A stretch of DNA of 64,000 bases from contig JAJGOT010000321.1 in NCBI GenBank assembly GCA_022457155.1, positions 468,501-532,500 on the forward strand. Direction: 5' to 3'. How positions within the stretch are numbered: position 1 is the stretch's first letter; each line of letters starts with the position of its first letter. The translations under genes were made by a program, and so were the position numbers. A model generated the notes under the pieces. The model worked only from the letters and a program-made list of their open reading frames with translations. It did not search any database and was not told the DNA's origin. Shown here in pieces: positions 5,381 through 52,351 of this stretch. Source of the DNA: Cladopsammia gracilis. Lineage: Eukaryota; Cnidaria; Anthozoa; Scleractinia; Dendrophylliidae.

Positions 5381-6140
5381 ATGGCTTCCCTCTCAGACGC
5401 AGAGCAGACGCTTCGTTCAACAAATGCAAAAGCCAATTTCCAGAGATTAACACGGCTGTTGATATGCGGGGGTGCTAAGCTTTTAAGAGAAAAGTTCGAC
5501 TGCATTCACAAGCCAGCCGATCTTCCAAAAAAGCTCAGTGATCTTGCCACAATAAAACAACTAAAAGGAGCACATCTAACGAAAGACGAATGGAAATGCC
5601 TGTATCCTTGCGCAGGAACATACGGCAAGTCAAGTGATTTTGACATAACCTTAACATTCAGATTGTTCCGACATATCTGCTCCCTCACTCCTCCTCCCAG
5701 CGCCGGCCCTCCCGGCTCCGGATGGGACAAGCTACCAATCGCCTCGGACCACAGCCTAGAGGCAGATTTGGCGCGGATAAAATATTACAGGAATAAAGTC
5801 CATGCCCACACCACGACCATGGAAATACCCGACGATGAGTTTGGTAACCTTTGGAAAGAAATCAGTGAGGCACTCCTGAGAATTGCTGCAGGTATCAATC
5901 ATGTAAAGAGAGACGAGTGGAAGAAGTCCATTGATAAATTTATGTCTGACGATCCTTTAACCCCAGAGGCGGAACGATTTGCTGATGAGCTTCAGTTGTG
6001 GTACGAAAACGACAGAGATGTTAAAAAAGAGGTACAGAATGTAGGCGAAAAGGTGGATGGAAGTTGCGAAAAGATCGAGGAACTTTGTGAAGAATTTCGG
6101 CGCTTACGGGAAGACGTAAGACAGTCTTCCCATATTGTAG
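5381..6140 (+). CDS. exon 1: DZIP3-like HEPN domain
   Basis: The 253 codons encode a HEPN domain of the DZIP3/hRUL138 type, a helical fold common in cnidarian immune-type proteins. Recognisable pieces in order are the N-terminal NFQRLTRLL helix, a DFDITL segment near residue 87, the WDKLP turn near 115 and the HEPN active-site motif R137-N-K-V-H-A-H143, the R-x4-6-H pattern of HEPN ribonucleases. That residues are present does not prove RNase activity. Residues 200-250 (DELQLWYENDRDVKKEV onward) look like a coiled-coil linker. The ATG at 5381 opens the homologous region. The exon ends at the donor AG/GTGAGT (6141), leaving phase 1; continuing into the intron gives a short non-homologous tail and a stop. 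Confidence 0.82.
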
Positions 6141-6908
6141 GTGAGTGGGAAGATCATTCAATCAGTGCGAGCAATGTATCTTGTGCTCGTAGGCCAACTG
6201 TGTTACATTTATATATTTTGTGTGAAAAGCGTTAACAGACACTTGGCCAGCTCTAATGGTAGCTAAAGCTTTGCATTTTTTTAATAAGAGCTGGCCAACG
6301 GGGCTAGTTAAAGGGGGTGAACCTTAACTACAGTTTTAGAGTCTTTGCTAGAGGCATTATTTTATGGTTAGTATTTCTCACTTGTCATAAATTGCTAACA
6401 TGATGGGAACTATGAATCTGTATCCACATGTTATCACCGCTTTGATTCAGGCGCGGGGACAAAAGATTCGTTTAATTGGAGTTGTACTTTTTCACGTTAT
6501 ATCAGTGTAGTGACGTCGAAATACGGACGAGAGGTTGCTTAGAAAAGGATAAAAACAATGAGAATTAAACTCATCAATATTAACGGTGGTCACGGTCGCT
6601 TCTGAAAGGTTTCGACTTTCGACTGTAATGGCTTAACTAGGATAAAAAAACGTTATTTTGGAAAAATAGTCGCTTGGGAGAGGTTTTAACAATACTGATT
6701 TGACTGAAACAAATTTAGCATTTTGGAAATCTGGACGCTTACGAGACGTGCTCGCACACAGAGGTTCGACTGTATCTAAATGTTACTCGTTGCAATGACT
6801 TAAAAAAAATATTCTAAACAACAGTAAAAATCAAAAAGAACGTTTCACAAATTTGCAATTACCAGTATATACTGATCACGTATAACAGATTTTGTTGTTA
6901 TACAATAG

Positions 6909-7418
6909 GCATGCCGGTACGTATTGAACATTCCGTCGAAACCATGGCACAAGGTGGAATAGTATTATATTTGGAGCAACTAAAGGGAAAACGGGTAATT
7001 ATTATACAAGTCGATGATGATGTACAAGAGCAAGCAGCAGGGGTGGAAAGCGGATTGTCCCATGATCAAAGAACTGAAGAAAATCGGCAGGAACTTCCAA
7101 AAGAGAAAGACTTTTGGGATGTTGTTGCAAAATATACGGACTTTTTTTCGTATTTAGAGTACTTGGAAGACAAATGTAATGTCATTTTGCAATACGTTGA
7201 AACGGGGAGTCTTTTGGTAACTGTCGAGTGCAGCTCATTGCAGATCCTTGAAGAACTTTGGGAAAATTACAACAGCGGTCACCTCAATGAAGTTGCCCAA
7301 AAAATATTCGTGACAGATGATGTCTTGGAGAAACTTGGCCTTACTGGGGTGAAGCTTAAAACCAATATTTCGGAGGAGGAGTATAAAAAAGGAAAACAAA
7401 TCCTCGTGGATAAATTAG
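6909..7418 (+). CDS. exon 2: TRADD-like N-terminal domain
   Basis: The acceptor ATAG/GC at 6908 joins exon 1 in phase and this exon stays open for 170 codons to the donor AG/GTAAGT at 7419. The second half (residues about 90-165, including SLLVTVECSSLQILEELW, an NEVAQKIFVTDDVL segment and an ISEEEYKKGKQ helix) matches the TRADD-N-like adaptor domain that cnidarian proteins place between HEPN or death-fold domains and effector domains. In vertebrate TRADD this fold mediates TRAF2 binding; the role here is inferred as an adaptor. The first ATG at 6911 is in frame but is internal if the exon 1 splice is used. Confidence 0.75.
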
Positions 7419-7487
7419 GTAAGTGTAAAATCTAGTCACGGTATAACAGTCTCAATATCGGACACAATTGTTGAAACACTTCTTTAG

Positions 7488-7562
7488 GTCCAACATTGAG
7501 GAGGAGGAAGAGCCATGCACCGCATTCGATGGCGAATTCTTACCTTGAGCCAAGTGTTTCAA
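7488..7562 (+). CDS. exon 3: short linker exon
   Basis: A 75-base stretch bounded by TTTAG at 7487 and A/GTAATT at 7563 that keeps the frame between exons 2 and 4 (phase 1 at both ends). It encodes about 25 residues, basic and serine-rich with no domain. It is supported only by splice signals and phase, so it could be skipped in some transcripts without breaking the frame. Confidence 0.5.
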
Positions 7563-7632
7563 GTAATTGTGTCTTGCATTTTGTAAATTGCTTTGCTCCA
7601 TCTACTGATATTCATTTCCTTCTTGTTTGAAG

Positions 7633-7833
7633 CGTGTCCTGTGTGTTGGGAGCAGTTTAGTGAAATCAGGGAACCAAAAAAACTGCAATGTCGGCACACT
7701 TTCTGCAAAGTCTGTCTGGAAGCTTGGTTACGAGAGCAGCGTGAAGAAAAGTTGAGTTGTCCGATGTGCCGTCAGATCACCGAATGTCCTAACAACAATA
7801 TCGACAACATTCCATCCAGCTTTCCGGAGGAAG
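7633..7833 (+). CDS. exon 4: RING finger
   Basis: A C3HC4 RING domain: CPVC near the start, then LQCRHTFCKVCL and finally CPMCRQ, with spacing normal for E3 ubiquitin ligases. The acceptor is TTGAAG/CG at 7632 and the donor G/GTACTC at 7834; the exon is phase 1 at both ends. Together with the upstream HEPN domain this gives the architecture usually named E3 ubiquitin-protein ligase DZIP3-like. The last codons (an asparagine-rich segment then PSSFPEE) join in frame to exon 5. Confidence 0.8.
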
Positions 7834-8445
7834 GTACTCATCAAAATTTGTAATGGCTGTGCCGTCTATTACTAGAATCCCTTACTCGTTTCCAGATGAA
7901 AATATGTGGTCTTTCTTGCCGGTTTTCAGTCCTTACCCAAACCGTTTCCACCTTTTCAGGCCTTTGTGGCAAATCTTTCACCCATTGTTATTACCTTGTA
8001 GTTAAGAATAAAAATAAGCGATATCAGAGAACGACGTTTCAACGACTCCATGCCATCATTTTCAAATTCTGAGAGTAAATTAATTGTGCGATTTCATTTT
8101 ATTCTTGGTTTTCGTATGACGTCATAAAAATTCAAAAATCTAAAGTATACTTCCTACAAAGCTGTTTCTAACATGGTATGTGGATACCAGTGTTATAATA
8201 TTTTACAAAAAGTTTCAGGTTTTAACGATGTTTTGCTTCCGATTTATAAAGGTTTTAAATGTGTCACGCAATTCGTTACGCTATTTCAGATAAGCCGTGA
8301 AAATAAACAAAATTGAATCAGCCGAAAGTTATTGCGGTTTGCATTATAAGTGCTTATAAGCCGAGTTAATGGAGCTTATAGCAAATACAATATTTTTTAA
8401 TTTGATTTTTAGTGTAATTAAGACTGAATTTTTGGCCGCCATGTT

Positions 8446-8471
8446 TGTGCCCCTGAGTGGGGCACAAAGAT
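8446..8471. repeat. perfect short hairpin TTTGTGCCCC/GGGGCACAAA
   Basis: An 11-bp perfect inverted repeat with a 4-base loop, embedded in a larger imperfect one (GGCCGCCATGTT / GATGGCCG). It is probably the core of a small degraded MITE. Confidence 0.5.
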
Positions 8472-9017
8472 GGCCGCTCCATACATTTCTTACCAAAAAT
8501 GTATAATACTCGTTCACCTATAACTCTTGAACGAAACGCTTTTGCGCTTCAAAATTTGGCCAAGATGTGTAGTTTTAAACTCTCTGCAATTCCATAAACA
8601 TTTTGGAATCGAAATCTATTGTTTAATGCTTCTGAATTTTGATATGACGTAAGTGAAAACCAAGAATAGTAACATATAGTATGACGAGCATTGAAAGTTT
8701 TATCTTCCATCGTCAAAATAAAGTAATGAAAATGACAACTGTGTGACGTCATATCACTTGACATACTTCAAGGTCATCAAGAGATAGCAATTTCCTGTGT
8801 GCCGAACAAGAACTCTGCGAGTCGTGAAGTCGGGCTTCTCTTGAAGGAATCAACAAAAAAGTGTCAAAATGGACAACATTATTTATTTTCTCAAAAGGTA
8901 TTTACGATTGTGTGGAAAGCTATATCTCATATGAAAGGGTAGTAAATTTTTTTTTGGAAAAAATATACCATAATGTTTGATTTAATTAGCATAAACTAGC
9001 ATAACTATTCCACAATA

Positions 9018-9113
9018 GTCCATTTTACAGTTGTGTGCTTGGTGACCTTGCCTTTGAGTGGAAGCGAGGCTGGAGGTGACTAAGGACACTAAGAAGACAA
9101 CTGTAAAATGGAC
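9018..9113. mobile_element. 96-bp MITE with CCATTTTACAGTTGT ends
   Basis: Seventeen-base inverted repeats (GTCCATTTTACAGTTGT and its complement) at 9018-9034 and 9097-9113 enclose 62 bases with no coding capacity. Size and structure are those of a non-autonomous DNA element. Confidence 0.55.
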
Positions 9114-9555
9114 AAAAAAGCATATTGGTTCAAAATGATATGAAGTACAAGAAAACTTGAAAGCAAAAAAAAAAAATAATAATAAAAATAAATAATAAAT
9201 TAATAATACTCTAAATTCGACGAAAAACAAACCCGCTTGAGTTTTATAATATTTCTAAAATCATGCAACTACACACGAATGTGAAGGAGGAAAGATTGCG
9301 CGACAAGTCCAAAGGAAGTCTTCGTAGGAGGCTACACACGATGCAAAACTTATTTCCGTCAGGCAAGTGAAATTTGAACTTCGGCCTGCCTGTAAACGAC
9401 TGAATATTACGCAGCAACAATACACAACAGCTAAATAACAATAAAATGAGCCACATTAATAAACGCATTAATAAATAAATAAACGCAAACGTGATCTCGC
9501 GTAACGCAGCAATGCATGCGAGATATTTCAGTAACTTGATCAGTGAGCAATGGGG

Positions 9556-9700
9556 CTTTATCACGCCCCGCCATTTTGTATAAAAACAAAAGATTTCTGC
9601 CCGCCCAACCTCGTTTTCAACTTTTTCACTGCGAGGCTGGGCGGGCAAAAACAAAGCATTTTATTCTCCGGGGAGTCAACATGGCCGCCGCGTGATAAAG
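9556..9700. mobile_element. 145-bp MITE with nested inverted repeats
   Basis: Outer arms CTTTATCACGCCCCGCCAT / ATGGCCGCCGCGTGATAAAG and inner arms CTGCCCGCCCAACCTCG / CGAGGCTGGGCGGGCA make a nested palindrome. Non-coding; the open frames across it are incidental. Confidence 0.5.
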
Positions 9701-9861
9701 GCCTATTCAATGGACATCTTAACATCCAAAATCAGGTCGCCTGGTTTCCAAATCGATGTTCACAGCAAAAAACTCTACAAATGTTTTCGTCAACATCATG
9801 TGACAAAGCGGAGAAAGTCCAAGGGAACTGCTCTTTTCGGAAGAGGTAATCACACAAGTCA

Positions 9862-9965
9862 TTTTCAAGTCATTTTCAAATCATTTTCAAGGTGGTAGTG
9901 GATCGTTTGGGTCGTTTTGGGTCATTTTCTAGGTGGTTGTGGGTCGTTTTGGGTCGTTGTGGGTG
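9862..9965. repeat. degenerate GGGTCGTTTT minisatellite
   Basis: Irregular copies of TCATTTTCAAG and then GGGTCGTTTTGGGTCGTT run head to tail here. It is low-complexity with no function visible. Confidence 0.5.
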
Positions 9966-9970
9966 GTTCC

Positions 9971-10106
9971 GCGTTTTAGTAGCTACGACATTGAAAACAT
10001 TTTCTCTAACCGAGACTCAATACGTAAGGCCAAAGAAGCTTTTTTAATTTCAAAAGGCAGAACACTTGCACCTCATGGCCTCAACATTCGCGAAGAAACA
10101 TACTAA
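9971..10106 (+). pseudogene. C-terminal scrap of a retroelement protein, probably Penelope-like GIY-YIG endonuclease
   Basis: A frame that stays open to the TAA at 10,104 ends in FLISKGRTLAPHGLNIREE, similar in pattern to the C-terminal end of GIY-YIG endonucleases of retroelements (a TLAPHGLN-like block before the stop). Nothing of the upstream catalytic part remains. The assignment rests on a short recalled pattern and is tentative. Confidence 0.35.
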
Positions 10107-10496
10107 TTATTTATGCGCCGATCAATTCGAAACATCAACATTCCCCCCCCTCCCCTGGGCATGCCCCGGGCATTTGAACATTTTCATTCTACCTCGCCAA
10201 GCTCGTACGAAGGAAAATCATTTTCCTTCTACAGAACGCTGAAGCATAAACACACGCTACAACAATGTAAAGGCAGGCAGTGTGCGAACACTTGCCTACA
10301 ACGTGACATTCAAAGAAAGGGGAACGAAATACCTCGAAAAGCTGCCTATCGTCATTAGAAGTACTAGCACGCATCCGAGAAGCGCCAAAGGACGAGCTTC
10401 TATCTCTGTCCGCCCTCATCGGAACATTTTCCTTCTTCTTTTTGAGCGCTCGCTGCTGTGCTTTTCTGATCTTCTTTTCGTCTTCGGAATTGCTCG

Positions 10497-10898
10497 CTAG
10501 CTCCTCGGCCTGATACTTTTTAACTGCAAGCCAACCCGCCTCGCTTTTGTCGGCAAGTTTGATGATTTTCTGTCGACGCTTGTGACTCTTGTCCAGTCTG
10601 CTAGCTTCTCCTGCGCTCGGCCGACGTCTTGGGCTGCCAAGAAGTTTTTAGCTTCGTCCAGAGTTCCTGCAAGTTCTGAATTAAACAGAAATTGGTCCTT
10701 GTTTCCAGCAAACTTGAGTTTCTCCGCTTCAGCGACTCTGGTTAGCTTTTGCGTCTCCGACGAAGAACGGGAAACGAGCCCGGACGAAATAGATTCCACC
10801 TTCTGGTCAAGATAACTCTTGAATCGCTCGAATACTGCGTCCACCGGAGCACTATCGGCACTTTTAGAAGACGATTCCCGTTCCGGCGAAGACGGCAT
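10497..10898 (-). pseudogene. DIRS/Ngaro-like gag (ORF1) N-terminal fragment
   Basis: A 133-residue frame with the features of ORF1 proteins of tyrosine-recombinase retrotransposons in corals. It starts with a serine-rich acidic N-terminus (MPSSPERESSSKSADS), then VFERFKSYLDQK, and a later LKFAGNKDQFLFNSEL segment. The same family is seen at 53.2-53.9 kb on the - strand. The C-terminal basic half is present only in broken frames to the left. The sequence just upstream on this strand (near 11,080) shares the GGAAAATACATTT motif with the terminal repeat of the 48-54 kb element, so both probably belong to related DIRS-like families. Confidence 0.5.
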
Positions 10899-10989
10899 AA
10901 CGAAACCAGCAAACTAAAAAAGCCAAACTACCGTCGAGTAGTGATGCACGTGATGACAACCTTGACGCTAAAACCTCCTTATATCCCTT

Positions 10990-11011
10990 AGTGGGGTCTC
11001 AAGAGACCCCA
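10990..11011. repeat. perfect palindrome GTGGGGTCTC-AA-GAGACCCCAC
   Basis: A 10-bp perfect stem with a 2-base centre, immediately followed by a second small inverted repeat (GCTAACAC...GTGTTAGC). It sits upstream of the gag-like frame on the - strand and may belong to that element's 5' region. Confidence 0.5.
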
Positions 11012-11997
11012 CGCGCTAACGGCGCTAACACAATGTGTTAGCTGGCATGCATAGCATACTCACGCTGAACTTCCGAAGGAAAATACATTTTGTGTGCCCG
11101 GGGAGTCGGGAATTTGATGTGAAAGGCCATCCCGGGGATGGGGAATTTGACTTTGCCTGGATGGGGTGGGGAATTTGAACCGGAAGTGTTCAATGTACCT
11201 TTTTTTGCCTGTAAAACGCACGTTTTTGTTAGTGAATGGCTAGTGAAAAAGGGGCTGACAAAGCTTTGCAGTGTTTTTTAAGGTTTTTATGATTAGTTAA
11301 ATATTTATAAATCGTAGATTTTTAAAATATAGCTTTAATTGCCACTCAACGCCTACTAGATTTTGCAGTCAAGATGGCGGACTGTATTACCAGTCTAATA
11401 AATGTCCGTAGATCTTAATCGTGTGTGTGATCAACATCTGTTGATCACACGAGGAATTACTCAATTAAAAAAATTATCGAAAAGTCAATCCCCAAACAAT
11501 AACAAAATTCATTTCAGCATGGTGTCCACAGGAGTGCCGTGAAATATCATTCCATTGAGTATATTCTCGAGGAAAACACCAGCTCGAATAAATCAGAACA
11601 ACTAAATGCAAAGTGTATTAATTATTTTTTTATTCCCACTAAAAACATTTTATCTTTAGGAGGGGCATTTGACAGTCAAATCTAGTGCTAGGGTGGGGTA
11701 TTTGAATGCAATTTTGGCCCAAGGGGGCGGGAATTTGAATAAGTCGATCTTCAAAAGTTCAAATGCCCGAGTCATTGCCCGGGGGGGGGGGGGGAGGATG
11801 TTGATATTTCGAATTGATCGGCGCATTATTTTGGTATTAGTTTCCTTTCATTGTTTTCTGTATATTTTTCGTTATCAGCTAGTTTTATTTCTGTCTATCA
11901 TTGTTATTTTTCTAGGCGGAGCCCTTCGTATTTCCGTTGTTACGTATACATGTCAACTATATAAGAAATGCCATTTTTATTGTAAATTTAACCTCAT

Positions 11998-12040
11998 TGT
12001 ACCTGAAGAAAGCTGGTTTGCCCAGCCGAAATATAGTACA
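11998..12040 (+). ncRNA. candidate type I hammerhead ribozyme (diverged)
   Basis: All hammerhead core parts can be laid out: stem I TGTAC (11,998-12,002) pairing with GTACA (12,036-12,040); core CTGAAGA fitting CUGANGA; stem II GCTGG/CCAGC; then GAAA; then a minimal two-pair stem III and UA as the cleavage dinucleotide. Weak points are a mismatched or extra base at the start of stem II and a stem III without a loop, which would need a dimer to cleave. Penelope-like elements are known to carry hammerhead motifs of this kind. A fitted pattern, not a proven ribozyme. Confidence 0.4.
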
Positions 12041-12780
12041 CCTTTAAAAATTTTTTACCAACGTTGTATCGGTCGTTGCTTCTATACTGTATTAAAATAA
12101 TCCTCCACTTTCAAAGTCAGTAACATCGATTCTTCGCTAGAACTGATCAATTTCAGATTCTGTATCGCTTGCAATTCATCCATTGCCGCTGTCTTCCATT
12201 TTTCAAGCGCTGAAACATCGTTTGGGTCAACACAGGAGGATCTTAATTTCTTCGCCACTTCGGCTCGCTTCGCATAAATTTGATTGTTTTTTGTAAACAA
12301 CCTCATGTAGTCTAATGGTAAGCTGTCCGGCATAAACTCTCTCAGTGATTGGCTTAGACCACTGTCATGCTAGCCTCCAAATTTGGAGGGGATTAAAAAT
12401 AACGCAAATTTTTGCGAGATTTTTCGGATTTCCCATCGTGAGTGTCGGATATTTAAGAGCTAGTCCTAGGTACGAGAATTAATTAACTTGTTATGATTGT
12501 TTTACATGTACAGTCGCTTTTTCAGTCACACAAGGTGATCCGTCACGCACGTTACTAAGTCGTTTGAAACCTTTAATCAGTCTTTCGCAATCACTCGTGC
12601 GTGCAAGGTCAACTTTAGCTTTATTACTTCCATTTATCTGTTGCTCGAAAAGAAAGAAAACGAAATCGTTATCGAATCAACTCTCGCCAAATCCGGCTAT
12701 AATGTAAGTTCCTTTTACTTGATATGTTTCGTTTCGTCATTTTACTTTTTTTTATGTTGTAAATAAATCCATTCTCCTTG
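12041..12780. other. intronic stretch without a supported gene
   Basis: A - strand frame at 12,082-12,333 (83 residues) has no recognised motif and may be retroelement debris. A perfect 16-base palindrome CCTCCAAATTTGGAGG lies at about 12,374-12,389. Nothing else is evident. Confidence 0.4.
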
Positions 12781-12791
12781 GCCATCGTAGC

Positions 12792-13385
12792 TTAATAAGA
12801 AATAGCACACAAAATGGTTATCCTGCTGGTGTTGTCAATTACAACATTAATGATGTTTTGAACAGACAGCAGAACAGACTGAGGAATCCGATCATCACAG
12901 TTCCCAAAAAAGAAACAATCTTAGTTTTACCTTATTTAGGGGTACAAAGTAAAATTGTTACCAAACAGCTTAAGACCTGCATTAATAAATTTTATGGCTG
13001 CATTGATCTTAGGGTGATTTTCCAAAACGCTCATCGCATTAAGTCCTTTTTTCCCTACAAAGATAGGTTCAACCGTTCCCAAATGTCAAAAGTTGTGTAT
13101 AAGGCTAGTTGTTGGGATTGTCAGGATTTCTACATTGGAAAAACAAAACGAAGATTGCATGACAGAAAAACTGAACATTTTAAATGGATCACAAGTATTT
13201 GTCATGCATCTGCTATCGCAGACCACGTCACATCAACTGGTCACAACTTCAAATGGGACCACTTTGAGATATTGGTAAAAGGTCGGTCTGATACTCACTG
13301 TAAGATTAAGGAGACTCTACTTATTCAGGAACTCAGACCTACCATTAACGATAATGTCAGCAGCGAAAAGCTAATTCTTTATTAG
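12792..13385 (+). pseudogene. Penelope-like GIY-YIG endonuclease, C-terminal part
   Basis: The frame is open from about 12,792; the first ATG is at 12,858. It encodes a linker with the conserved LVLPYLG motif and then the endonuclease: VVYKASCWDCQDFYIGKT gives the Cys-x2-Cys plus YIG signature, followed by the catalytic-type R-x-L-x-x-R-x-x-EH segment and a closing KETLLIQELRPTIN. These are hallmarks of the endonuclease fused behind reverse transcriptase in Penelope-like elements, which nicks target DNA to prime reverse transcription. The RT part is absent, so this is an inactive fragment, though the remaining frame has no stops. Confidence 0.75.
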
Positions 13386-13491
13386 TTTGCATCTTTTATA
13401 TGCAAATTTTTCTCATCTTATGTTATTGTTGTTGTTAATTAGTTACTTATTATTCATTTAAATTTAGTTGTTACTTGTATTCTAAACGGTC

Positions 13492-13531
13492 ACTTCTGAT
13501 GATGTATGTTGTAACATACGAAACGTCAAGT
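13492..13531 (+). ncRNA. candidate type I hammerhead ribozyme in the 3' region of the Penelope-like element
   Basis: Core CTGATGA at 13,496-13,502 and GAAA at 13,520-13,523 flank a hairpin GTATG/CATAC (stem II, loop TTGTAA). ACTT just before the core pairs with AAGT just after CGTC (stem I). The putative cleavage site is after GTC at 13,527. Stem III is only A-C/G-T with no loop, as described for minimal retroelement hammerheads that act as dimers. One extra T sits between the core and stem II. Position downstream of a GIY-YIG frame is what is known for hammerheads of Penelope-like elements. Confidence 0.55.
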
Positions 13532-13596
13532 TAATATTTTGTTTTCCAACATATTGTCATGTTTGTCACTGCAGTTTGTGTGCTATTTCTTATTAA

Positions 13597-16301
13597 GGAG
13601 GCTCGTACCCATTTCTCAAGTCCACACCCTTTCAATTTTAATGGGCCATATCTTTTGTTGCGTTCGACGATAGGAGAACGCAGTCCTTATCTTGGGGTTC
13701 CTGTGGTCACCTATCACGTGATTTCGCCGGCGTGAAGAATCGAGATTTTTTGGGTGGGCGATGTGCAAAATCTGCGCCATTTTGAATAATAAGAACTATG
13801 CGCACGCATCTATTTCTTTTTATCAAGAGCGCGGGCTACAAGTGGAGTGAAATTACTTGAGACGACACTTGAGACCACGTTTTTCTGTTTTTGTTCGTGC
13901 CGTCCTTCGTGCTTTCTTCTGCCTTTGCTGTTTTTCGCAATGTTTTTTTTTTTAAAGTAAGAATGATTTAATCCCAAAGTCCCTAGATCCTTAGTCACAA
14001 TGTTCACCGATCCCGAAAACGCGTTCACTCTAGTCATACACATGGCCTATAAAGTGACCTTATCTTAACTTTGCATATTTAAAAGCCTAACGGAATCTGA
14101 TATACTTAATTTCCCGACTTGTCAAACTAAATGTCCTAAATCACTTGATAAGATCAATGAATGAAAATAAATGAACCGATTTCCGACAAACATCATTTCT
14201 TCTTTCAGCTGTTGTAACAAACATATCGAACGCACTCTGTTAATCTGTGATTCTGCTAGTTGTAGTGTATAAAAAGACAAGCCACTTTGCATGCAAACAC
14301 ACAATACATTGAACTTTATGGGAGTATAGGATTTGTTTACATCGGTGCTTCCATGGCAACGGAATGGTGATCCTCTGAAATTCACAAGTTACGGAGTTTC
14401 TCTAGATCAAGAGAATTTTTTTGTAAAACCCGCTAGTGGACTAATTGATTAGACCATGGGCTTCAACTGGACAAAGTTTGAAAGAAATGTATGAGAGCGT
14501 TTTCGAAATTTTTAGGGATGAAGTTTTAGGGATTATAAATACAGTGAAAAACATACTATCGACATAATTGGCTAATATCTAAAGAAAATGATGCGCGATG
14601 GGGATGCAGTTTCATCTCATAATAGTTTCATTCCATTTGAAATGGTGTGTGAAAAAGTGAGGGGGTTGCTTTGGCCGATTGCAAGAAAGAAGGATTTGAT
14701 TAGCGTGCGTTCAGCTGCTCTTGTTGCCATTTTTGTATGTAATTTGGTCTACGCCTACAAATGTGATGATAATTTGGAAACCGCGAGATAAATTTTTTTA
14801 AAAATTTGACAATCTCGAGATTGGTCAACACTTTATATGGCCTGCAAGTTTCAAGGACATTGAAGACATGCAAGGCAATAAAATAGGGCCTCCAATGTAC
14901 CAATTTTTTCCCGCAGAGTTTGTGTTTACAAGTGAGCGTCCTCATTATTCACGGGTATTGTTTTCAAGTTTCATATGCACGTGCAAAACTTTACAAAAAA
15001 ATGTATTTGCATCAAACTGGACGCTCGATTGCTTTCCGAACAATTTTCCGAAACATGCTAATAACTGGCTTGCGTTACGAATAGCAATGACAACAGTACT
15101 GATGAAGACAACGTCGGAAACGTCACGTTTCATCAAGTGCCGGATGCAGAAATAACACATTTATGATTGTCTCACTCTGGTTATTTGTTGAAATCGGCGT
15201 TGCATCTGTTCCTTATTTAGATATAAAATAGCGCAAAGCAGAATTCTCAGCTAAAATATAAAGTTGTCACGCTGTTCTTGCGTGTGACATATTAAAGAAG
15301 CACTGTTTCTGCATTACGTTTATAAATTTTCAAATTGGGATATGTTCTTCTTGTCCTGCAATTTTAAAGAGACCCTCGGTATGGCTGCATTACAGCGTAA
15401 TAGCGCAACATCGAGTGCGTAATGTTATTACAGTTCTCAAGCCAGCTATTAGCATATTTCGGAAAATTCTTCGGAAAGCAATCGAGCGTTCTGTTCCGAT
15501 GCAAATAATTTTTTTGCTAAAGTTTTGCAAGTGCATATGAAACTCGAAAACAATACTCGTGAATAATGAGGACGCTCACATGAAACACAAAATCTGCGGG
15601 AAAAAATTGGTTCATTAGAGGCCCTATTTTATTGCCTTGCATGTCTTCAATGTCCTTGAAACTTGCAGGCCATATAAATTGATGACCAATCTCGAGATTG
15701 TCAAATTTTTAAAAAAAATTATCTCGCGGTTTGCCTACATTTGTAGGCGTAGACCAAATTACATACAAAAATGGCAACAAGAGCAGCTGAACGCACGCTA
15801 ATCAAATCCTTCCTTCTCGCAATCGGCCAAAGCAACCCCCTCATTTTTTCACACACCATTTCAAATGGAATCAAACTACTGTGAGATGAAACTGCATCCC
15901 CATCGCGCATCATTTTCTTTAGATATTAGCCAATTATGTCGATAGTATGTTTTTCACTGTATTTATAATCCCCAAAACTTCATCCCTAAAAATTTCGAAA
16001 ACGCTCTCATACATTTCTTTCAAACTTTGTCCAGTTGAAGCCCATGGTCTAATCAATTAGTCCACTAGCGGGTTTTACAAAAATTTCTCTTGATCTAGAG
16101 AAACTCCGCAACTTGTGAATTTCAGAGGATCACCATTCCGTTGCCATGGAAGCACCGATGTAAACAAATCCTATACTCCCATAAAGTTCAATGTATTGTG
16201 TGTTTGCATGCAAGGTGGCTTGTCTTTTTATGTACTACAACAAAAGATATGCCCCATTAAAATTGAAAGGGTGTGGACTTGAGAAATGGGTACGAGCCTC
16301 C
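13597..16301. mobile_element. 2.7-kb foldback element flanked by TTAA
   Basis: TTAA at 13,593-13,596 and 16,302-16,305 flank 64-bp terminal inverted repeats starting GGAGGCTCGTACCC. Inside is a second inverted repeat of about 0.8 kb: 14,260-15,073 against 15,436-16,237, separated by about 360 bases. The similar 64-67-residue frames at 14,588 (+) and 15,913 (-) exist only because they lie on the two arms; no transposase is present. The left arm contains about 600 extra bases (13,661-14,259) absent from the right arm. TTAA duplication suggests mobilisation by a piggyBac-like or other TTAA-specific transposase. Confidence 0.75.
13955..14190. repeat. interspersed repeat, copy 1 (copy 2 at 32,413-32,632)
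   Basis: From AGTAAGAATGATTTAATC to AACCGATTTCCGACA this matches 32,413-32,632 at high identity with scattered small indels. Here it lies in the 600-base insert of the foldback's left arm, so that insert is probably a separate mobile sequence. Confidence 0.7.
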
Positions 16302-16339
16302 TTAAATAAATCCAATTCATCCATGAGGTTGAAGTTGCT

Positions 16340-16908
16340 ATGTCAACTGATATGACGTCACTAACACTTAGCCGCAGGCTACAAACAACTTGAAAAGCGC
16401 ACTTTTCTTAATTCTTACAACCGAAATTATAAGTCGTGCATGCTCGGCTTGTTACCCGACTAATTATCTCACCACATCAGATACGAAAGTCCTTGTCAAT
16501 TTTACCTTTCTGTTCGCTTTATCCTCGGAGTCACAGACACATCAGATGTAAGTCGATCGGTTCATTCTCATTATTGTATTTTTCTCATGTTCATAAGTAT
16601 ATTCTTTACCTCATTGCACCAAATTTGTAACTTTTATTTTATGTAATTAGTTTTTACCGATTGAATGACGTACAACAAAAAAATTATGCAAAATGATTCC
16701 ACTGCGTGGTTCTCTTTTCGTTGAGAAACATGTACAAGATTAAATCACAAAAGAAAGTCAATTGCACATGTTGCATTGAAATATTCTGAAATATGACATG
16801 CACACAGGGTTGCCTCTCAGACCAAATGTAAATGTAAATGCGCATTTCATAAGAAAGCAAATTACATATTTACCAAAAAAAAAACTGTTAACTAATTTGA
16901 CGTCACTA
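16340..16908. other. intronic spacer with an empty-site paralog
   Basis: No gene. Bases 16,350-16,400 (GACGTCACTAACACTTAGCC and beyond) are a paralog of the sequence flanking the MITE at 16,909-17,030 and lack the MITE. Confidence 0.5.
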
Positions 16909-17030
16909 AGGCCCGGTTCAAACGTCGAACTTCACATGTGCCGAATCTAATGCAAATGAGCAAGAACAATAGATTTTTCTCATTTGCATTAGGTTCGGCA
17001 CATGTGAAGTTCGACGTTTGAACCGGGCCT
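16909..17030. mobile_element. 122-bp palindromic MITE, probable PIF/Harbinger type
   Basis: The element is almost wholly an inverted repeat: GGCCCGGTTCAAACGTCGAA... and its exact complement with a short centre. The paralogous sequence at about 16,354 reads CACTAACACTTAGCC where this copy reads CACTAA[element]TAACATTTAGCC. The 3-bp duplication is therefore TAA, consistent with the TWA target of PIF/Harbinger elements. A diverged half copy is present near 27,529-27,575. Confidence 0.7.
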
Positions 17031-17241
17031 AACATTTAGCCGCAGGCTACAAACCACTTGAAGCGGTCCATTTGCGACCGTGAAACACAGCTCATTTTTA
17101 TAAGTCGGGCAGTTGCATTAGGTTCGGCACATGTGAAGTTCGACGTTTGAACCGGGCCTAACATTTAGCCGCAGGCTACAAACCACTTGAAGCGGTCCAT
17201 TTGCGACCATGAAACACAGCTCATTTTTATAAGTCGGGCAG
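16984..17241. repeat. tandem duplication of a 129-bp segment
   Basis: Bases 16,984-17,112 and 17,113-17,241 are nearly identical head-to-tail copies. The unit runs from the right half of the MITE through TAGCCGCAGGCTAC to TAAGTCGGGCAG. The near-identity points to a recent duplication. Confidence 0.8.
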
Positions 17242-17647
17242 GCCCGACTAATTTTTATAAAATTATTCAATCTGTCACACGCAGCGAGTGTTTCACTCAC
17301 ACTAACTTAACACTGAAACGTGATTTAGGTAGCATTTTACACTATTGTCATTGTCTTCGATTTCGACTACGACAGGGTTCACATGGACGACGTAATTTTA
17401 GCGTTTTATTGTTTTTCTTATACAATGAACTACCGCATCTAACCCCACTGAAACACTACAAAATTACGATTTAGAGAAACGTTCGTAATTTTCTTTCAAC
17501 CAAACTGATAGTATATGTGTAGCTGCCTGACTTTGACATGACTTGCGCATTTGAGAACATAAGAATTAGCCAAATTAATTTTGGATGAAATTGTTTTAAT
17601 CGGGACGGAAAAAAAATCCGTTGTCCGTAGTAAGCGGGCAAAGTTAA

Positions 17648-18293
17648 GGGCTCACGGACGGATTTCTCGCACGTTGCTTAGGAAGTGAAAAATCATTTCC
17701 GGTGAATGACGCAAATATTTCGGCAGCCAATCAGAAAAACCCCGCGAGAACCCACTAAAGCACAGATCTCTGGTCAGACGAATAGCGCATGCGTTGATAA
17801 AATGACTTCCGGTTCAACCTCGTTCCCAGTACCCTCGTTTCAGATTACTTCCGGTTTGCAGAAAAATCCTAAATTCTTGGCGGTCTCTGACTTGATTCAT
17901 TATTTTTCACTGTTACATTTATCTAACCTGGATATGGAATATAACTAAGTATGCGTCTATTGAAATCATTTTCAATACAATTTTTATGGACAAATCAATA
18001 TTTTAAATCTCTCTAAAAAAGCTATTTTCAAATTAAAACGAATTCCATACTTACGATGGTGGGAAAATGAATAAATACAACAACACTGTCAACGATTTTC
18101 CGATAAAATGCGACACATCAAAAATGTTAGACTTTTTCGTTATTGGTCACGTGATCATGGGCATGGCTCGATGACGTCATTTTTGGGTTTAGGACTGAGT
18201 TGAAAATTTGACCGTATGTAAACGATTAAAATTAAAAATAAATAGCCATTACTGTCCCTAGCAACGGGTCCGAAAATATACGTCAGTGAGCCC
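17648..18293. mobile_element. 646-bp TTAA-flanked non-autonomous element
   Basis: TTAA at 17,644-17,647 and 18,294-18,297 flank the inverted ends GGGCTCAC / GTGAGCCC, with partial complementarity further in. No transposase frame. It belongs to the TTAA-target class, but its ends differ from the other TTAA elements here. Confidence 0.6.
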
Positions 18294-18299
18294 TTAAGA

Positions 18300-19513
18300 G
18301 AAAATGTATGGACTTTCGGCCGGGACCAAGACAATTGACAAATCTGCACACCCTATGATTAATTCATTTGAACAGAGGCCATTCTCGGAAAAAACAAACA
18401 CACAGGGAGTCCAGGCTCACAACAGGTATTCTCAACGACAAAAATATAAAGATTGTATGGGATTTTATCGTGAGTTTGATAAAATATCGAAATTATAAAC
18501 AGCCATTAAAGTGTTCATACCTCATAAAATAATGTTTGTCTATTGTTTCTTGGCGGCTTTATGGGTTCTAAATGGCATTTTGGTATTTCTGGTTTGACTT
18601 CACCTAAAAGAAGTAAAGGGAGAACTCGCAATTCCAAGTCACTCCATCGAAAAGCGACAAAAATTGCCTTCAATCGATTCCAATCGCTCCAAAACTTCGC
18701 TCAGTAAAGAGCGAGTCCGTTCCTTTCTATGCATCTCACATTAAGCTCCAAAACCGCAGTCATCGCCTCATAAATACGATAAATACAACCAGAAAATTCA
18801 ATGCTCTCTGGTCCTTGAATGCTTGGACATCCTAAAAAAGCGTGTTACGGGCACCCGTTGGCTGTTGCAAAACTGGATTCGCACGAGCACCCAGGGGACG
18901 CCTTGTCAACATTCAAGCCGCTCGCCCGGTTGTTCGAAAAGTTGGCGGGACTACTTTTTTCTTGTTTCAACTTCAAGTTCCTTCTATAAAGCCGAGAGTA
19001 GCCGCGGTTACACGACTTTACGGCTTTTTTGCAGAGAACGGCAAAGAAATGTACCAAAATGTGTAACGCACGTGCATAGTCGTTGTTTTGCTAATTAAAC
19101 CTATTGTTTTTAACGTTCTCGTTGCCGTCGCCGTAAAGCGTAGGTAGCCTATCTTTACTGAATTAAAAAAAACTAAAATTTTGCAAAATGGGACCAAAAA
19201 AGGTTCACAGTATCCTTAAAACCCGGTTTCACTACTCGTAGAGATCTTAATTCATTCATTCATCCGCGCCGGCCATATCACATTTCTCATGAACACTGAG
19301 AATGCTGAAGTGCGCACAGAAAGTGTCAAATTTAACCAATTAGATGGTATACCAGAATCTGATGTACCCGAAAGATTTTTTTTGGTAAGAATTTTTACAG
19401 GCGTTCCTTCTCCCTCTTTTCTCTCATCTTAGCTTAAGCAACTTATTAGAAAGAATGAAGCTTGCAGATCTGGGAATAGGTAACTCACTTGTGTCAATGT
19501 TTATCACTTGCAG
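18300..19513. other. intron end without recognised features
   Basis: Overlapping open frames at 18,823-19,098 show no domain. The last 20 bases before 19,514 contain the acceptor CACTTGCAG used for exon 5. Confidence 0.4.
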
Positions 19514-21768
19514 TCCCTCCAGAAATAGCTGCAAGGGGAGCCTTGGCATTTAAAGCCTATAACAATGCCCTAAGGGAGGGACGAACCTGTGTCAAAAGAG
19601 TGCCAGTAATGTTGATTGGACAGGATCGGTCAGGAAAGACCAGCCTAATGAAATCACTAAGGGGGCAACGATTCAACCCAGATGAAGATAGTGCTGTCGG
19701 GATAAAAAGAGATCCTTCACATTTCAAGGTAACCACTGAGATTTGGAAGGCCGGAGAGAAGGGTGAAGCAACAAATTCCGATGCAGTTACTTCATATGAG
19801 CAACTTGCAGCACAACTGAATGTCAGTAATTTGAGAGAGGGAAAGAGAACACCCACGGAAGGAGCTCTAAAGTCTGGAAGTCCTTCGTTGTCTGCTATAC
19901 ACGAACTAGCTGAAATTACGTTTGGTTCAAAGGAAAAAGATCTGGAGACAGGTGTGGAACAAGACCATTCTGGAGGTATTCTTATCACAAACACAAATGT
20001 CCATAACTCCAAGACCTCAGGTGCAACACTAGAAGAGCGTGCGTCCAATCAAAGCGATGAGCCAAAGGTACCATACGAGATAGCAGCTCTGGTTGAAAAG
20101 TTGCTTCCTGAAGTTAACAAACGAGAAGACGAACAAGATGTTCATTTCGTTTTGTGGGATTTTGGAGGGCTGTCAGTCACTCACCCACTCTTTCTTACTC
20201 CAACGGCATTGTACCTTTTGGTTTACGACCTCAGCCGAAATCCCCATGGCAAAGCCGAGCCAATTGTGAAGCAGGGAATGTTCAGTAAAATCATAGACAC
20301 CTTCGGTCTGAGAGCAAACCTGGACTATCTAGATTTTTGGATGACTTCTGTTGAGTGCCTGTCAAGTCAAGATGAAGTCCGTCAAGAACATTCAGATTCT
20401 AAATCTGAAGTCTTACCAAAGTCACTTCCTCCCGTGTTCCTTGTATGCACACACGCTGATAAACCACACGGTGGGGCGAATCCTTTTGCACTTGCCCATG
20501 AAATCTTCAATAGTCTGCAAAGAAAGCCATACAGTGATCAGTTCGTAAAGCATGTCTTTGTCGTGGATAACACAAAGGCTGGTAGCCATTCTGAGTGTGC
20601 AGAAGTTATTCGCCTGCGGCGGGACATCCTTGCTGTTGCTAAAGAGCTACCTCAGATGAAAGACACAATTCCAATCAAATGGTTGAAATACGAAAGGGCG
20701 CTTCGAACTACTACAGAAGAGGAGGGCTTCAAATGGATTTCTCTGGAAACAGCTAAACAGATTGCATCTGAGGTATGCGAAATTAATGATGATCAAGAGT
20801 TTTTGACATTGCTTAACTTTTTACATGATCAAAGATATCTGATTCATTTTGACGACAATGCTGTGTTGAACGATTTGGTGGTCTTGGACCTTCAGTGGTT
20901 AGTCGATCTGTTCACGATGGCGATAACCATCAGGCCTTATGACCACGAAGAAAGAGAATTTAAAGAACAGTGGCGTAAGCTTGAGACCACAGGAATCCTG
21001 GAGGAAACACTACTTGAGCATGTTTGGGGTCCTTTGCAGCGGGAAACTTATGAGAGCCTCATTGCAATCATGGCGAAGTTTAGCTTGCTATGTCCTTGGC
21101 CTTCATCAGATGCTTCATGTAACAAGCAATACCTCGTGCCATCCATGTTAATGTCCCATCCACCGCAGGAAATAGAGAATTTAGTTGCCTCTGCACAAAT
21201 TCCTTCTCTTTTTCTTAAGTTTGAATCAGTTCAAATTCCTCCAAACTTCTTTCCCCGATTGGTTCTGCAGTTTTTTCAGTGGTGCACTGAAGAATTTCCA
21301 ACCCAATTTACCCCCCAATTGTTCCACAATTTTGCGCGATTTTACATTTCGTCAGACACAGGTTGCTCCGTAGTCCTTCTGTGCCATTTGGTTGCTGTTG
21401 AGGTGGTCTTTCTTAGTAAATGTGATGATGTAAGTGTTTCAGAAAATTTTTATGTCACCTATGCCGTTGTTGTGCGCAATCAGCTAGCCCTGATGGTCGA
21501 ATCCATGCGGAACGAGTTCAGCTGGTTGAAAAACAAGAGGTGTACACTGAGTTTTCTTTGCCCAGTCTGTTCTAATGGAGGTGCACTTGATTATTGTCAA
21601 AATCATCGTACAGCAGGTTGCAAACAAGAAGAATGCCTTCACTTCCTTTCCGAGTTGGAGTTGTTGAAGTGTAAAGAATATATTACTTGCACCCGATCTG
21701 CTTTTGCTCAGGATATTAGAGTTGAGATCAACCTGTTTACTCCTTGGTTTGCGTCTAGTTGTGAAAAG
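19514..21768 (+). CDS. exon 5: Roc-COR (Roco) GTPase domain
   Basis: The acceptor TTGCAG at 19,513 supplies the two bases that complete the phase-1 codon of exon 4. The exon is open for 751 further codons to the phase-0 donor AAG/GTGAGA at 21,769. The Roc GTPase begins near residue 32 with the P-loop GQDRSGKT. A diverged switch II (WDFGGLSVTHPLF) lies about 175 residues later, after a low-homology insert, followed by VCTHADKP as the G4 element. The COR domain follows (WLKYERAL through EVCEINDDQEFLTLLNFLHDQ and DLQWLVDLF), ending in a cysteine-rich CPVCS...CLHF segment. Roco proteins are signalling GTPases that dimerise through COR. Fusion to HEPN, TRADD-N and RING suggests a pathogen- or stress-sensing role (inference). 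Downstream exons were not identified. Confidence 0.85.
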
Positions 21769-22277
21769 GTGAGAGTACATTTTATTGCATTCAACATAAT
21801 TATTTAAAAAGCAATCTTACTTGAAGACACTTAGGCATGTTTTTTTTTTAAAGATATCCCGACATTTGAGGTGTGGTAGGTTTATCAGAAATCCCATTCT
21901 TTACGCAAGGTGACTCGTTTGCACCTCAGCCTTCTGTTTTTGCACCTTTCGTGCGAATTATTTATGCGTATCCCCACTGCATGTCGCATTGCCATGCCAG
22001 GTCAGGTAAAAAATCTAACCACATAAAAGGCTGGTAGCCGTTGCCTTACGTTTGTTTAACCCTAACTCGCTTAAATGGTTGATGACCCTTATTTTTTGTT
22101 TGATAGATATGTTTTTACTCACGCCAACGAATTCCCTCCATATTGTAACTGTATAGGGTTTGCAAATGCCCTCCTTAAAAATAAGTTTATTACATGGAAG
22201 GATAGTAAAGTTGAATTTAATTACTTAATAGTCTATGTTGTAGACGATTTCCTTGGTTGGAACCTTTTTGATAGTGG
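21769..22277. other. probable intron after exon 5
   Basis: No further exon was recognised. An open frame at 22,075-22,281 has no domain signal. Confidence 0.4.
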
Positions 22278-22281
22278 TTAA

Positions 22282-22684
22282 GGTGGTTAACTGGTTTTCG
22301 GCGGCACACAATCCCAAATTTGAACGATTGATACTTCACTGTCTGAGTTCGGTCAGGCAAGCTGTTTCACACATATACTAGAGATAGAAATGAAAGTAAG
22401 GTTAATCTTTAAATTTTTGCTGAAAAATATTCAACCCAATTTTATTCGAAGACGTTCTCAGGAAATGTTTTCAAACTTCTAAAAGTTTAGGACTTGCTGT
22501 CGAGAAAATTATGTCATCAATTCGTTCCTATGGTAATACCGATGCCAATCAAATATACTTTTTCGGAATGTTCAGTTACTCTCTAGTAAATGTGTGAAGC
22601 AGCTTGCCTGACCGAGCTCGGACAATGTAGTATCGGCCGTCCAAAGTTGGGATGCTGTGCCGCCAAAAATAAAGTTGAGTCACC
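22282..22684. mobile_element. 403-bp TTAA-flanked MITE
   Basis: TTAA at 22,278-22,281 and 22,685-22,688 flank long imperfect inverted repeats. Matching pieces include GGCGGCACA / TGTGCCGCC and GGTCAGGCAAGCTG / CAGCTTGCCTGACC. Non-coding. Confidence 0.65.
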
Positions 22685-22688
22685 TTAA

Positions 22689-25200
22689 AAAAACGTCCGC
22701 GGTTGTGTTGTATAATGCAACCAATGTTAAAATTTTAAGGGGTAATAGTTGTATTCTAGGTTTTATTCTATTCAATTTCTTTGTTTACTCATCAATAGAA
22801 TCAAATTGGCAGCGGAGACTGTGGCGGGCTTTTACCTTCTGAGCAAGGTAGGCTCCCTCCATTTGTAAGGTCTTTTATGAGTTGTTATTTCATGTTTGTT
22901 GTTGTTGTGTTTGTTCTAGGTGCGAATTGGTGGTTCAGTTTATTGTTGGTAATCTGGATAAAAAAAAAACAATCAAAATCGAAAATCAGTCAATCGACTT
23001 ATGTGGCCTTTCACTGCTATTTTTGGGAGTTATATTCTTTGGTAACCACCAGACGTGCCTTAAAATGTCAGTTCAACGAAAAGTGACTATTACGACGTTA
23101 AATATTAACACTTCACAATAACGTTTTGTTCTCGGGCGAGCCCTCGCTTCAACGGCAGCATCTTGCAGCTCAACAGGATGTGACGTCAGGGACATCAATT
23201 TTCATTACCATCCAAGGTTGTTATAGCGTCGGACAAAATGCGAGAGTGCGGTCTTTCCGTTGTCGTTTTACGCGTTGCAAATTAAAGGAGATAATTATAG
23301 CGGAGCTTTCGTAGCTCCATACTCATAGAACCTATGCCCTTCATTTCTCATGGTCATGGCTAGTCGGTCTGTGTGCCCGCCGTTGGGCAGGGCTAGCTCG
23401 CGAGCGCGTATGACGTCGTAAAACATGCGCGTATGACGCGTATGACAATATCCAGGATTTAAGCAATTTTGAAACCAAAGCGAGGCTTTGTTTTTCGCGC
23501 GGCTACACAGCTGAATGTCACGTCAGCTCGGTAAACACTTCGATGTTTTAGTGTGTTTAGCGGAGAAACCATTTCAAATTGCAGTCGTTATTTCCCTGTA
23601 TTTTTTCGCGGTTAGCTATTCAAGACAGGGATACTAATTAAGGGATTATCAGGAGCCGCTATAGTTGAAAAAGAAGAGCTTCAGGGATAAAACCTTCTTC
23701 GAGGAACTTCATACGTTTTCATCAGTGCGGGAGCAATGGCCTTGGTTACTTTTAGGGGTGTCGCGCTATATAGCGGGGAGTTGTTTCTCACTTCGGATTT
23801 CAGAACTGAAGAAGCGGAGATGAAAGAAAGAAGATTGTGTTGTCCATTTTTGTGTTTGTTCATTCATTACATTGGTTGAAAAGCGATTTCATGGAAACAA
23901 AACAAGACTTGGATTTTATAGTTCTAAATTCACTCGCGTGGCCTTATGCAAATATGTTTGTGTATTTTTTACAATTGTGATTTCCAAATCAGTTTCAAGG
24001 GCAATTTTTGATAAGCAACAGGTGTATTTTAATTGGAAATTAGTCGTACTAGTTATTCTTGACGGATAAAATAGCCCGGTCGTCAATCATTTCTTCTGCT
24101 TTCGACCTTTCACCTCAGTTAAGTTTATCATCGGCTTTCTGGTATGGAGTTCCATCCCCGCCAAAATTCGATGTTTATATTTGACATTCTACTTCGCGCA
24201 TTTTAGGCTACATTACACAATTCGACATTCAACTTTGCATATTCCGTATTCAACCTCAACGATTGTACATTGCACTTTTCATTTTCGACATTCAACATTA
24301 CGCATTCGGCATGCGATATTGGTGATTTCTTCCACGCGCATTTAACATTCAAGTTTTCGTATTCAACATTGTAGATTACTCATTTCATACTCAATTTTTC
24401 GGGTCTTACCGTTTGGATTCAGATTACTGCATTTTCAACACGCAACTTCTCGTATTCAACATCCAACTTTCTGTATTCGGCTTCATTCGACATCCTACTG
24501 CAATCCAGGAAAGATTGACATCGTGGGCGCACACAACCCTCGCCCCCTCCCCGAGAGTAGAGTGTCAAAAATCCCTCCAGGTGAGTGGAGTAGGGAGAAA
24601 TTACTCTACCCAGGGACAGTCAAATTTTCGCGGTTTTCAAAATGGCGGAACAAACTTGAAATCGGCTCTGATCCACCCGGAATCAAGCTTTGACGCCTAA
24701 AAGTAAGTGATATTTAGTACTTTTTTATAGAAATAAATAGAGCGAAATTAGTAGCGGTTCAGTAGGTGTAGAATGTGCTTAATTCATGTGAAATTTCCAT
24801 AAACAAGCTTTAGCCTTTACAAATGTGCTTTGCTGACCTCGTTTAAAGTTCCATATTATTATTTTAATTTTAAGGTTATAGCGAATTAAATTAGCCTAGA
24901 ACCTTTTGGCTTATCTTAATTTGAGCTCGGGCCTCTGATAAGCTTTTAATATATATTAGTTTACATACCGGTACACATTAAATGGACTACGTTTAAATAT
25001 TAAAGTCTTAAATATGTTAAAGGGTCGTTAAATAAAGAGAGTGATTCGTGGTTCGTTGCATGTACACGCTTATCAGATAATCACATTATATAAGCTTTTC
25101 TATGAGCTTTTCGATGCTTTTCTTTGAGCTTTTCTATGCTTTAGAAAACCAGGATATGTTAAATCCAGATAATGGATGTCAGTTGTGGTGCCTACATATA
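22689..25200. other. gene-free repeat region
   Basis: No supported gene. 23,285-23,340 (TAATTATAGCGGAGCTTTCG...) looks like an end of an interspersed repeat with a partial inverted match near 23,655. 24,180-24,500 is a degenerate array of TTCGACATTCAAC-like words. Confidence 0.45.
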
Positions 25201-25204
25201 GAGG

Positions 25205-25511
25205 ATATTACATGGCCGCGCGAAGATACGAAATTTCTCTTCGAGTGTTGAAAAATATTTCACGAGACCAGGGCCGTAGCTAGCATGAGGCGAACCGAGG
25301 CACTTCCCTCGGTAAAAATATAATTAGTACAAGCATTGGATCTCTCTTGTAAGAGGCTATGCATAAAAAAAATGAAGGAAGTGCTTTTTTTCTGGTATTG
25401 CCTCGGTGAGAATTTTCGTCTGACAACGGCCCTGCGAGTGAGCGCAGCGAACGAGTGAAATATTTTTCACACGAGAAGACAAATTTTGTATCTTCAAGCG
25501 GCCATGTAATG
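25205..25511. mobile_element. 307-bp MITE with ATTACATGGCCGC ends
   Basis: About 60-base imperfect inverted arms (25,205-25,266 and 25,451-25,511) begin ATATTACATGGCCGC. The centre contains unrelated sequence. It lies just upstream of a truncated integrase-like exon at 25,732. Confidence 0.55.
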
Positions 25512-25731
25512 TTCTGTTTATTATATAAACACCAATGAAATCAAACCATTTCACTTTCACACATATTTTTTGAAGTCCTAAAGTAGAACAACGTGTCAAC
25601 GGTGATCTTTTCACGTGTGAAGATAACATTCAAAGGGGACAGACCGCAAATAACATGTTATTCTCACGTGTGAAGATATGATGTTTACGCGCGAAAGCTC
25701 ACCTGGTATTTCATTGGTGTTTATATAATAA

Positions 25732-25893
25732 TATGTGTTCTTGCCCATCATTAACAAACACTTGAGTAACTGGAAGGAGGCATGGGTCCATCATCCTTTA
25801 CGTACAGAAAGGAACAAAACAGCCATGCAATTATGGATTGGTAGACTGCAAGTGGCGTGGGGCTCACAAGGTCCAGAAGATGAAGTGTTTCAG
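25732..25893 (+). pseudogene. integrase-like (rve) gene remnant, penultimate exon
   Basis: Fifty-four open codons from the reading YVFLP at 25,732 through AWVHHPLRTERNKTAMQLW to a splice donor CAG/GTATAA at 25,894. The pattern (a FLP-IN motif followed by a W..HPLRTE.N.T..QLW block) is that of the retroviral-type integrase-core proteins found in many copies in cnidarian and fish genomes. The catalytic core exons should lie upstream but are not seen; the homology stops at a stop codon just before 25,732, next to MITE sequence. It is a 3' remnant, splice signals still intact. Confidence 0.6.
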
Positions 25894-28282: not shown

Positions 28283-28360
28283 ATTTAGGAGGGTGCTAAT
28301 GGGGTTAACAGTTAACTGACAATTGCCCAAAAATATAGTAGGTAACTGATAAATGAAAAG

Positions 28361-29924: not shown

Positions 29925-30019
29925 AATGACAACCTTTACTTTTAAGTACTTTGCTTAACTTTTGCAAATTCCTCTCGTTAGACCGCGGTTAAAGTTTAGA
30001 CTGGTTTTGCCAGATATGC

Positions 30020-34508: not shown

Positions 34509-34513
34509 ATTTT

Positions 34514-52347: not shown

Positions 52348-52351
52348 TTAA

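Follow-up and report, generated by a model that had tools for sequence, protein, structure and literature searches.

In cnidarians, proteins with a TRADD-like N domain (TRADD-N) are described as expanded and as carrying an N-terminal HEPN domain together with variable parts, including TRIM and polyubiquitin (Kaur et al. 2021, PMC8195603). The partners reported for HEPN domains of the DZIP3 type include RING, Death, CARD and NACHT (PMC3710099), and numerous fusions of DZIP3-HEPN to NACHT have been reported, as well as abundant HEPN domains at the N-terminus of coral receptors (PMC8260672, PMC10236652). Among Roco genes, actiniarian examples combining Roc/COR with TIR, and with kinase, Death, TIR and SH3, have been described (PMC5094078), and exon shuffling has been described for brown-algal ROCO genes (PMC11378527). 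In the accessible portions of the open-licence literature, no report of HEPN or TRADD-N fused to Roc-COR with RING was found. Here, we describe the sequence anatomy, the splice phases, the selection on the exons and the family relationships of a locus in the coral Cladopsammia gracilis that combines these parts. The locus begins in a stretch of 64,000 nucleotides (hereafter the window; bases 468501-532500 of contig JAJGOT010000321.1, one of 1469 contigs in an assembly of 877.8 Mb) and is probably one host gene of about 73 kb with eight recognisable exons, encoding a chimeric Roco protein with the order HEPN - TRADD-N - RING - Roc-COR - Death, at most 1445 residues long and joined from three expanded families.

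Five exons were rebuilt from their splice borders (Table 1). They are in phase, are separated by four introns with GT and AG ends, and join (760 + 510 + 75 + 201 + 2255 nucleotides) into 3801 nucleotides, or 1267 codons, without a stop. This reproduced the coordinates, phases and open frame given in a preliminary description of the window, and the domain names given there were also borne out, as each Pfam profile scored above its curated cut-off (HEPN_DZIP3 5e-36, TRADD-like_N 1.1e-9, zf-RING_2 6.6e-10, Roc 3.5e-10 and COR-A 1.6e-16). In another Pfam scan, the HEPN domain was again of the DZIP3 type (4.7e-37), the TRADD-N domain matched PF20694 (7.6e-11, 42.1 bits against a cut-off of 23.7) and the RING matched zf-RING_2 over profile positions 3-44 of 44 (2e-11), as in the RING fingers of E3 ligases. 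The Roc and COR matches (PF08477, 1.4e-10; PF16095, 8.8e-17) follow each other directly within the single exon 5, the arrangement that defines Roco proteins. No B-box match was found in the joined frame by Pfam, so the protein is not a TRIM in the sense of RING, B-box and coiled coil.

The preliminary description had called the HEPN domain a putative ribonuclease (RNase), and its motif, R137 N138 K V H A H143, agrees with the Rx4-6H rule, with a polar residue following R, that has been given for HEPN domains (PMC3710099). R137, N138 and H143 were near-invariant, being present in at least 90% of 26 aligned rows. The domain also resembles HEPN RNases in fold, a likeness that, for a helical bundle, is weak in absolute terms. 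It is a candidate RNase, and the RING is a predicted E3 ubiquitin ligase. The Roc-COR part contains a P-loop-like GQDRSGKTS, is detectably similar to the solved Roco chains 4wnr, 3dpu, 6hlu and 8r4b and to LRRK2, and may bind and hydrolyse GTP and switch between dimer states. Comparison of exon 1 with three paralog loci, two of which gave an identical result, yielded a non-synonymous rate (dN) of 0.21 and a synonymous rate (dS) of 1.05-1.32.

The 1267-codon frame had been taken to be the protein. It is open, but it terminates at the donor AAAG/GTGAGA (21769) with no stop codon there, and reading through this donor adds only 12 codons before a stop at 21805-21807. The frame is therefore an incomplete protein ending at a splice donor, and the C-terminal exons had been missed. 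The coral Roc-COR proteins that were read continue past the COR region, and four of six that were scanned had a Death match at E <= 0.01, with P0010 and P0077 above the cut-off and no match in P0009 and P0072. When the tails of coral Roc-COR proteins were used in tblastn searches, no such exon was found within the window, and three were found just past its end, collinear with a diverged copy found elsewhere on this contig (copy B, see below). Exons 6-8 are open and in phase, and give a full joined frame of 1445 residues. Joined to each other, they match the Pfam Death domain (6e-7, 30 bits against a cut-off of 22.6). Exon 6 would be joined to exon 5 through an in-phase acceptor located at contig base 534836, which is the basis for its start.

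Copy B was located 325 kb downstream by a search with the TRADD frame, to which it is 86% identical over 205 residues. It retains exons 2, 3, 4 and 5 with the same borders and a joined frame of 1015 codons with no stops, and its RING exon is 94% identical to that of the window copy (copy A). The alignable sequence starts within intron 1, at window position 6537. Calculated with a Nei-Gojobori script, dN/dS between the copies was 0.319 for exons 2-4 and 0.633 for exon 5 (p 0.0008 and 0.022, respectively, in Fisher tests on rounded substitution counts). These values show that one copy or both have kept the exons coding since they were duplicated, though the tests do not identify which copy is constrained, and taken alone they would not prove that exons 2-5 are spliced together. 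At the Roc G3 region (window 20158-20175, in exon 5), copy A has DFGGLS and copy B DFGGQS, and a YYV present there in Oculina relatives is missing from both.

Each part of the gene belongs to a family with further members in this genome, and the named database matches nearest to the three parts are from stony corals, including Oculina, Porites, Orbicella and Montipora. Searches of the genome listed 150 HEPN places (the best 150 of 181 candidates scored), one of them on the contig that carries copy B, and 85 TRADD places (109 of 109 candidates scored). Of the 34 HEPN places with the highest scores (49-100% identity, the window locus included), 22 are followed on their own strand by a TRADD place no more than 10 kb away, whereas no HEPN/TRADD pair on opposite strands within 10 kb was found among all 150 x 85 listed places. 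HEPN-TRADD is therefore a common cassette in this genome, as it is in corals. Many database proteins with this dyad, in the same order, are about 380-500 residues long (best 120 of 646 matches), and in others the dyad is followed by kinase, GTPase, ubiquitin, caspase or TPR parts. On four contigs (C365, C1145, C335 and C1248) HEPN matches are clustered, many of them within single open frames of about 1450-1600 residues.

The RING exon is 66-75% identical to 26 places besides copy B, below which identity falls to 55% or less (best 150 of 476 candidates scored). The one RING relative sampled, L054, has a TRIM-like frame with RING, B-box and Filamin. For COR-A (PF16095) there were 116 matches in the genome, 111 of them above the cut-off (best 150 of 178 candidates scored). 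For one animal genome this expansion of Roco is very large, though allelic copies are possibly counted; 11 of these places are on contig C224 and nine on C380. The closest relatives of exon 5 after copy B are 13 open places with 71-83% identity, two of them partly covered, and one further place with 76% identity contains stops (best 60 of 462 candidates scored). Alleles of a single gene may account for some of these places. Among the database proteins retrieved, the nearest Roc-COR relative was P0001, at 79% identity. Among the listed places, TRADD lies within 20 kb upstream of COR-A on the same strand only in the window copy and copy B (looser pairs, at 26, 36 and 56 kb, are on C1177 and C579), and HEPN within 40 kb upstream only in the window copy, one of 116.

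The Roc-COR exon opens with a phase-1 acceptor that splits a V codon as G/TT or G/TC, and this border appears to accept different upstream exons. A phase-1 acceptor with a phase-0 donor was found at the equivalents of exon 5 in five of eight paralog loci (L001, L003, L004, L005 and L007), of which L003 and L005 are near-alike and may not be independent. The 5' border pattern was not picked up in L002, L006 and L008, and no phase-0 donor was seen at the end of L008. Five of six retrieved proteins that were picked by pattern and have at least 60 residues ahead carry V before PPEI, and the parts found ahead of VPPEI in database proteins are of the SH3-SH2, Ras, kinase and PDZ types. In L055, the closest Roc-COR paralog sampled (83%), the upstream exon encodes a Death domain and ends in a phase-1 donor, CAG/GTGAGA, that fits the Roc-COR acceptor. 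The Death exon region of this locus comprises L055:4060-4411 and 5318-5700.

Several observations weigh against a single gene. The donor of exon 4 matches the consensus poorly, and the join of exons 4 and 5 is the weakest link of the gene model. For exon 6 the position of the 5' border is uncertain, as homology between copies A and B starts only at 534881, within coding sequence; a start at 534836 would make intron 5 44.6 kb long. P0077, P0088 and P0091 carry another residue in place of V before the start of Roc-COR, so on this evidence the phase-1 rule is not universal. The whole architecture was found in none of the 254 proteins retrieved (from the best 120 of 820 and the best 120 of 646 matches), and none of them matched the RING. 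For copy B, a HEPN exon was looked for in 55 kb of upstream sequence and exon 7 in 90 kb, and neither was found. Finally, the number of TRADD places expected by chance within 15 kb upstream of COR-A is about 0.08 per genome (hand arithmetic, assuming uniform placement), which is not negligible, and therefore adjacency alone is no proof.

The poor donor of exon 4 and the chance of adjacency would both suit two neighbouring genes on the same strand: the upstream one, HEPN-TRADD(-RING), would end at exon 2 or exon 4 or close to either, and the downstream one, Roc-COR-Death, would have a first exon of its own. In the window copy, a reading that continues past exon 4 does meet a stop (7851-7853), but this stop is absent from copy B, where the donor is kept. 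Reading through exon 2 gives a frame of 428 residues that ends at the same point in copy B and resembles in length the 408-458 residues of many HEPN-TRADD proteins among the matches listed; its stop, though, comes after the donor GTAAGT, and at the site of that donor G/GT is present in 26 of 30 TRADD loci, the window locus and copy B included (scored by eye; some are poor donors), the others being L014, L033, L034 and L035. When intron 4 was scanned for exons running from an ATG to a phase-1 donor and common to both copies, only two candidate pairs, of 8 codons, were left, and the phases of the exons agree with those of the upstream exons in other Roc-COR copies. Two genes are on balance unlikely. 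The join of exons 4 and 5 is likely genuine despite its donor, because the phase-1 borders appear exchangeable among Roc-COR copies and the Death exon of L055 has a phase-1 donor.

This join had been proposed to span an intron of 11.7 kb. Its borders and phase fit, but the corresponding intron of copy B is 4.4 kb long and lacks a stretch of 8.45 kb, across which copy B is contiguous, and therefore much of the long intron is extra sequence. No clean target-site duplication was seen around this stretch, and intron 4 of copy B also holds smaller stretches of its own. In intron 5, about 43 kb between window position 23300 and exon 6 have no collinear counterpart in copy B and contain mobile elements. 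One, at about 33900-45500, is AT-rich (18-27% GC) and includes an integrase core with a chromodomain, PLA2-like and A32-like ATPase matches, and a 956-residue frame that matches Endonuclease_7; from these domain matches it may be read as Polinton-like. A reverse-transcriptase-like frame lies at 30326-31858 on the minus strand (zf-RVT above the cut-off, RVT_1 just under), and tandem arrays with 140-base and 20-base units are at 49602-50281 and 59712-60140.

The extra sequence in both introns, the apparent lack of HEPN and exon 7 in copy B and the difference in the Roc G3 region would also be expected of a locus that is broken or silent, a duplicate that was shuffled, no longer yields a functional protein and has had introns 4 and 5 enlarged by mobile elements. 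Against this, the window copy has an open frame in each of its eight exons, and dN/dS between the copies is below 1, though this does not tell which copy is constrained. We consider a broken locus quite improbable.

Table 1. Features of the HEPN - TRADD-N - RING - Roc-COR - Death locus (window positions unless marked as contig positions)
Feature	Position	Strand	Remarks
Exon 1	5381..6140	+	Start codon, DZIP3-type HEPN (residues ~52-177) and long helix; donor GTGAGT, phase 1
Predicted catalytic motif of HEPN, R137-N138-x4-H143 (Rx5H)	5789..5809	+	Column conservation among 26 aligned sequences
Exon 2	6909..7418	+	TRADD-like N domain, Pfam match 7175-7318; donor GTAAGT, phase 1; borders same in copy B
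Exon 3	7488..7562	+	Short linker, 75 nucleotides; donor GTAATT; open, in phase; one codon shorter in copy B
Exon 4	7633..7833	+	RING finger; donor GTACTC, poor consensus match
8.45-kb stretch in intron 4, not in copy B	8807..17260	.	Copy B contiguous at contig 801707/801708
Exon 5	19514..21768	+	Roc-COR GTPase module; COR-A match 20671-21150; acceptor phase 1, donor GTGAGA, phase 0
Intron 5 start	21769..64000	+	Extends beyond window end
Exon 6	contig 534836(?)-535100		Beyond window; 5' border uncertain
Exon 7	contig 543485-543562		Beyond window
Exon 8	contig 546841-547031, then TGA		Beyond window

The chimeric gene probably arose by the joining of three families: a HEPN-TRADD cassette with a phase-1 donor would have supplied the N-terminal part, the RING would have been taken from a TRIM-like ligase, and the remainder would have come from a gene of the Roc-COR-Death kind, in which the exon for Roc-COR accepts interchangeable phase-1 upstream exons. 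The gene would presumably be transcribed as a single mRNA and translated into a single protein with a putative role in immunity. In such a protein the Roc-COR GTPase switch would probably set the dimer or oligomer state and the TRADD-N and Death domains would bring in partners; on clustering, HEPN domains would pair up as an RNase dimer and the RING would ubiquitinate proteins close by, the outcome being RNA cleavage and a death or alarm signal. We propose only tentatively that the product is a single-polypeptide immune executor, that its exons were recently shuffled out of three families, each expanded separately, and that RNA cleavage by the HEPN dimer and ubiquitination by the RING are both gated by its GTPase switch, with TRADD-N and Death as its recruitment ends. 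If so, corals may build Roco-based effectors as other lineages build NLRs. If the locus is transcribed, one protein would have predicted nuclease, ligase and GTPase parts. With relatives of all three parts still in the same genome, immune-type domain shuffling can be traced here, and the copies make it possible to ask when HEPN-TRADD and RING joined a Roco and whether phase-1 borders make coral Roc-COR exons exchangeable.

The locus had been called a striking immune-type architecture. This is a fair reading, but the architecture is less unprecedented than it seemed, given how frequent HEPN-TRADD is and that other coral Roc-COR proteins carry other N-terminal domains. One close counterpart is P0077 of Oculina patagonica (LOC144663539 isoform X2), which has an N-terminal HEPN on a Roc-COR-Death protein, but no TRADD-N or RING was found in it and its HEPN is divergent, with 37% identity to exon 1. 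HEPN-TRADD proteins of Oculina, Porites and Pocillopora (P0121, P0128 and P0129) share the N-terminal dyad, with 40-53% identity to the 515-residue N-terminal part, but have other C-terminal parts (kinase, caspase and TPR, respectively). L054 (on contig C589) has a RING 73% identical to that of the window gene, in which neither the B-box nor the filamin repeat of L054 was found. Bacterial Roco proteins and LRRK2 share Roc-COR, whereas the window protein has no leucine-rich repeat or kinase and has HEPN-TRADD-RING ahead and Death behind. The TRADD-N conflict proteins of Kaur et al. (2021, PMC8195603) are alike in their N-terminal HEPN and TRADD-N, expanded copies, fusions to TRIM ligase or polyubiquitin and transposon associations; they differ in that no fusion of Roc-COR (Roco) to TRADD-N is given in the accessible parts of that report. 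TRADD-N together with a TRIM-like RING on a Roco appears to be the new part of the combination. Most likely, the locus is a lineage-specific chimera of three known families, new as a combination, made by a process of a known kind and a variant of the cnidarian pattern.

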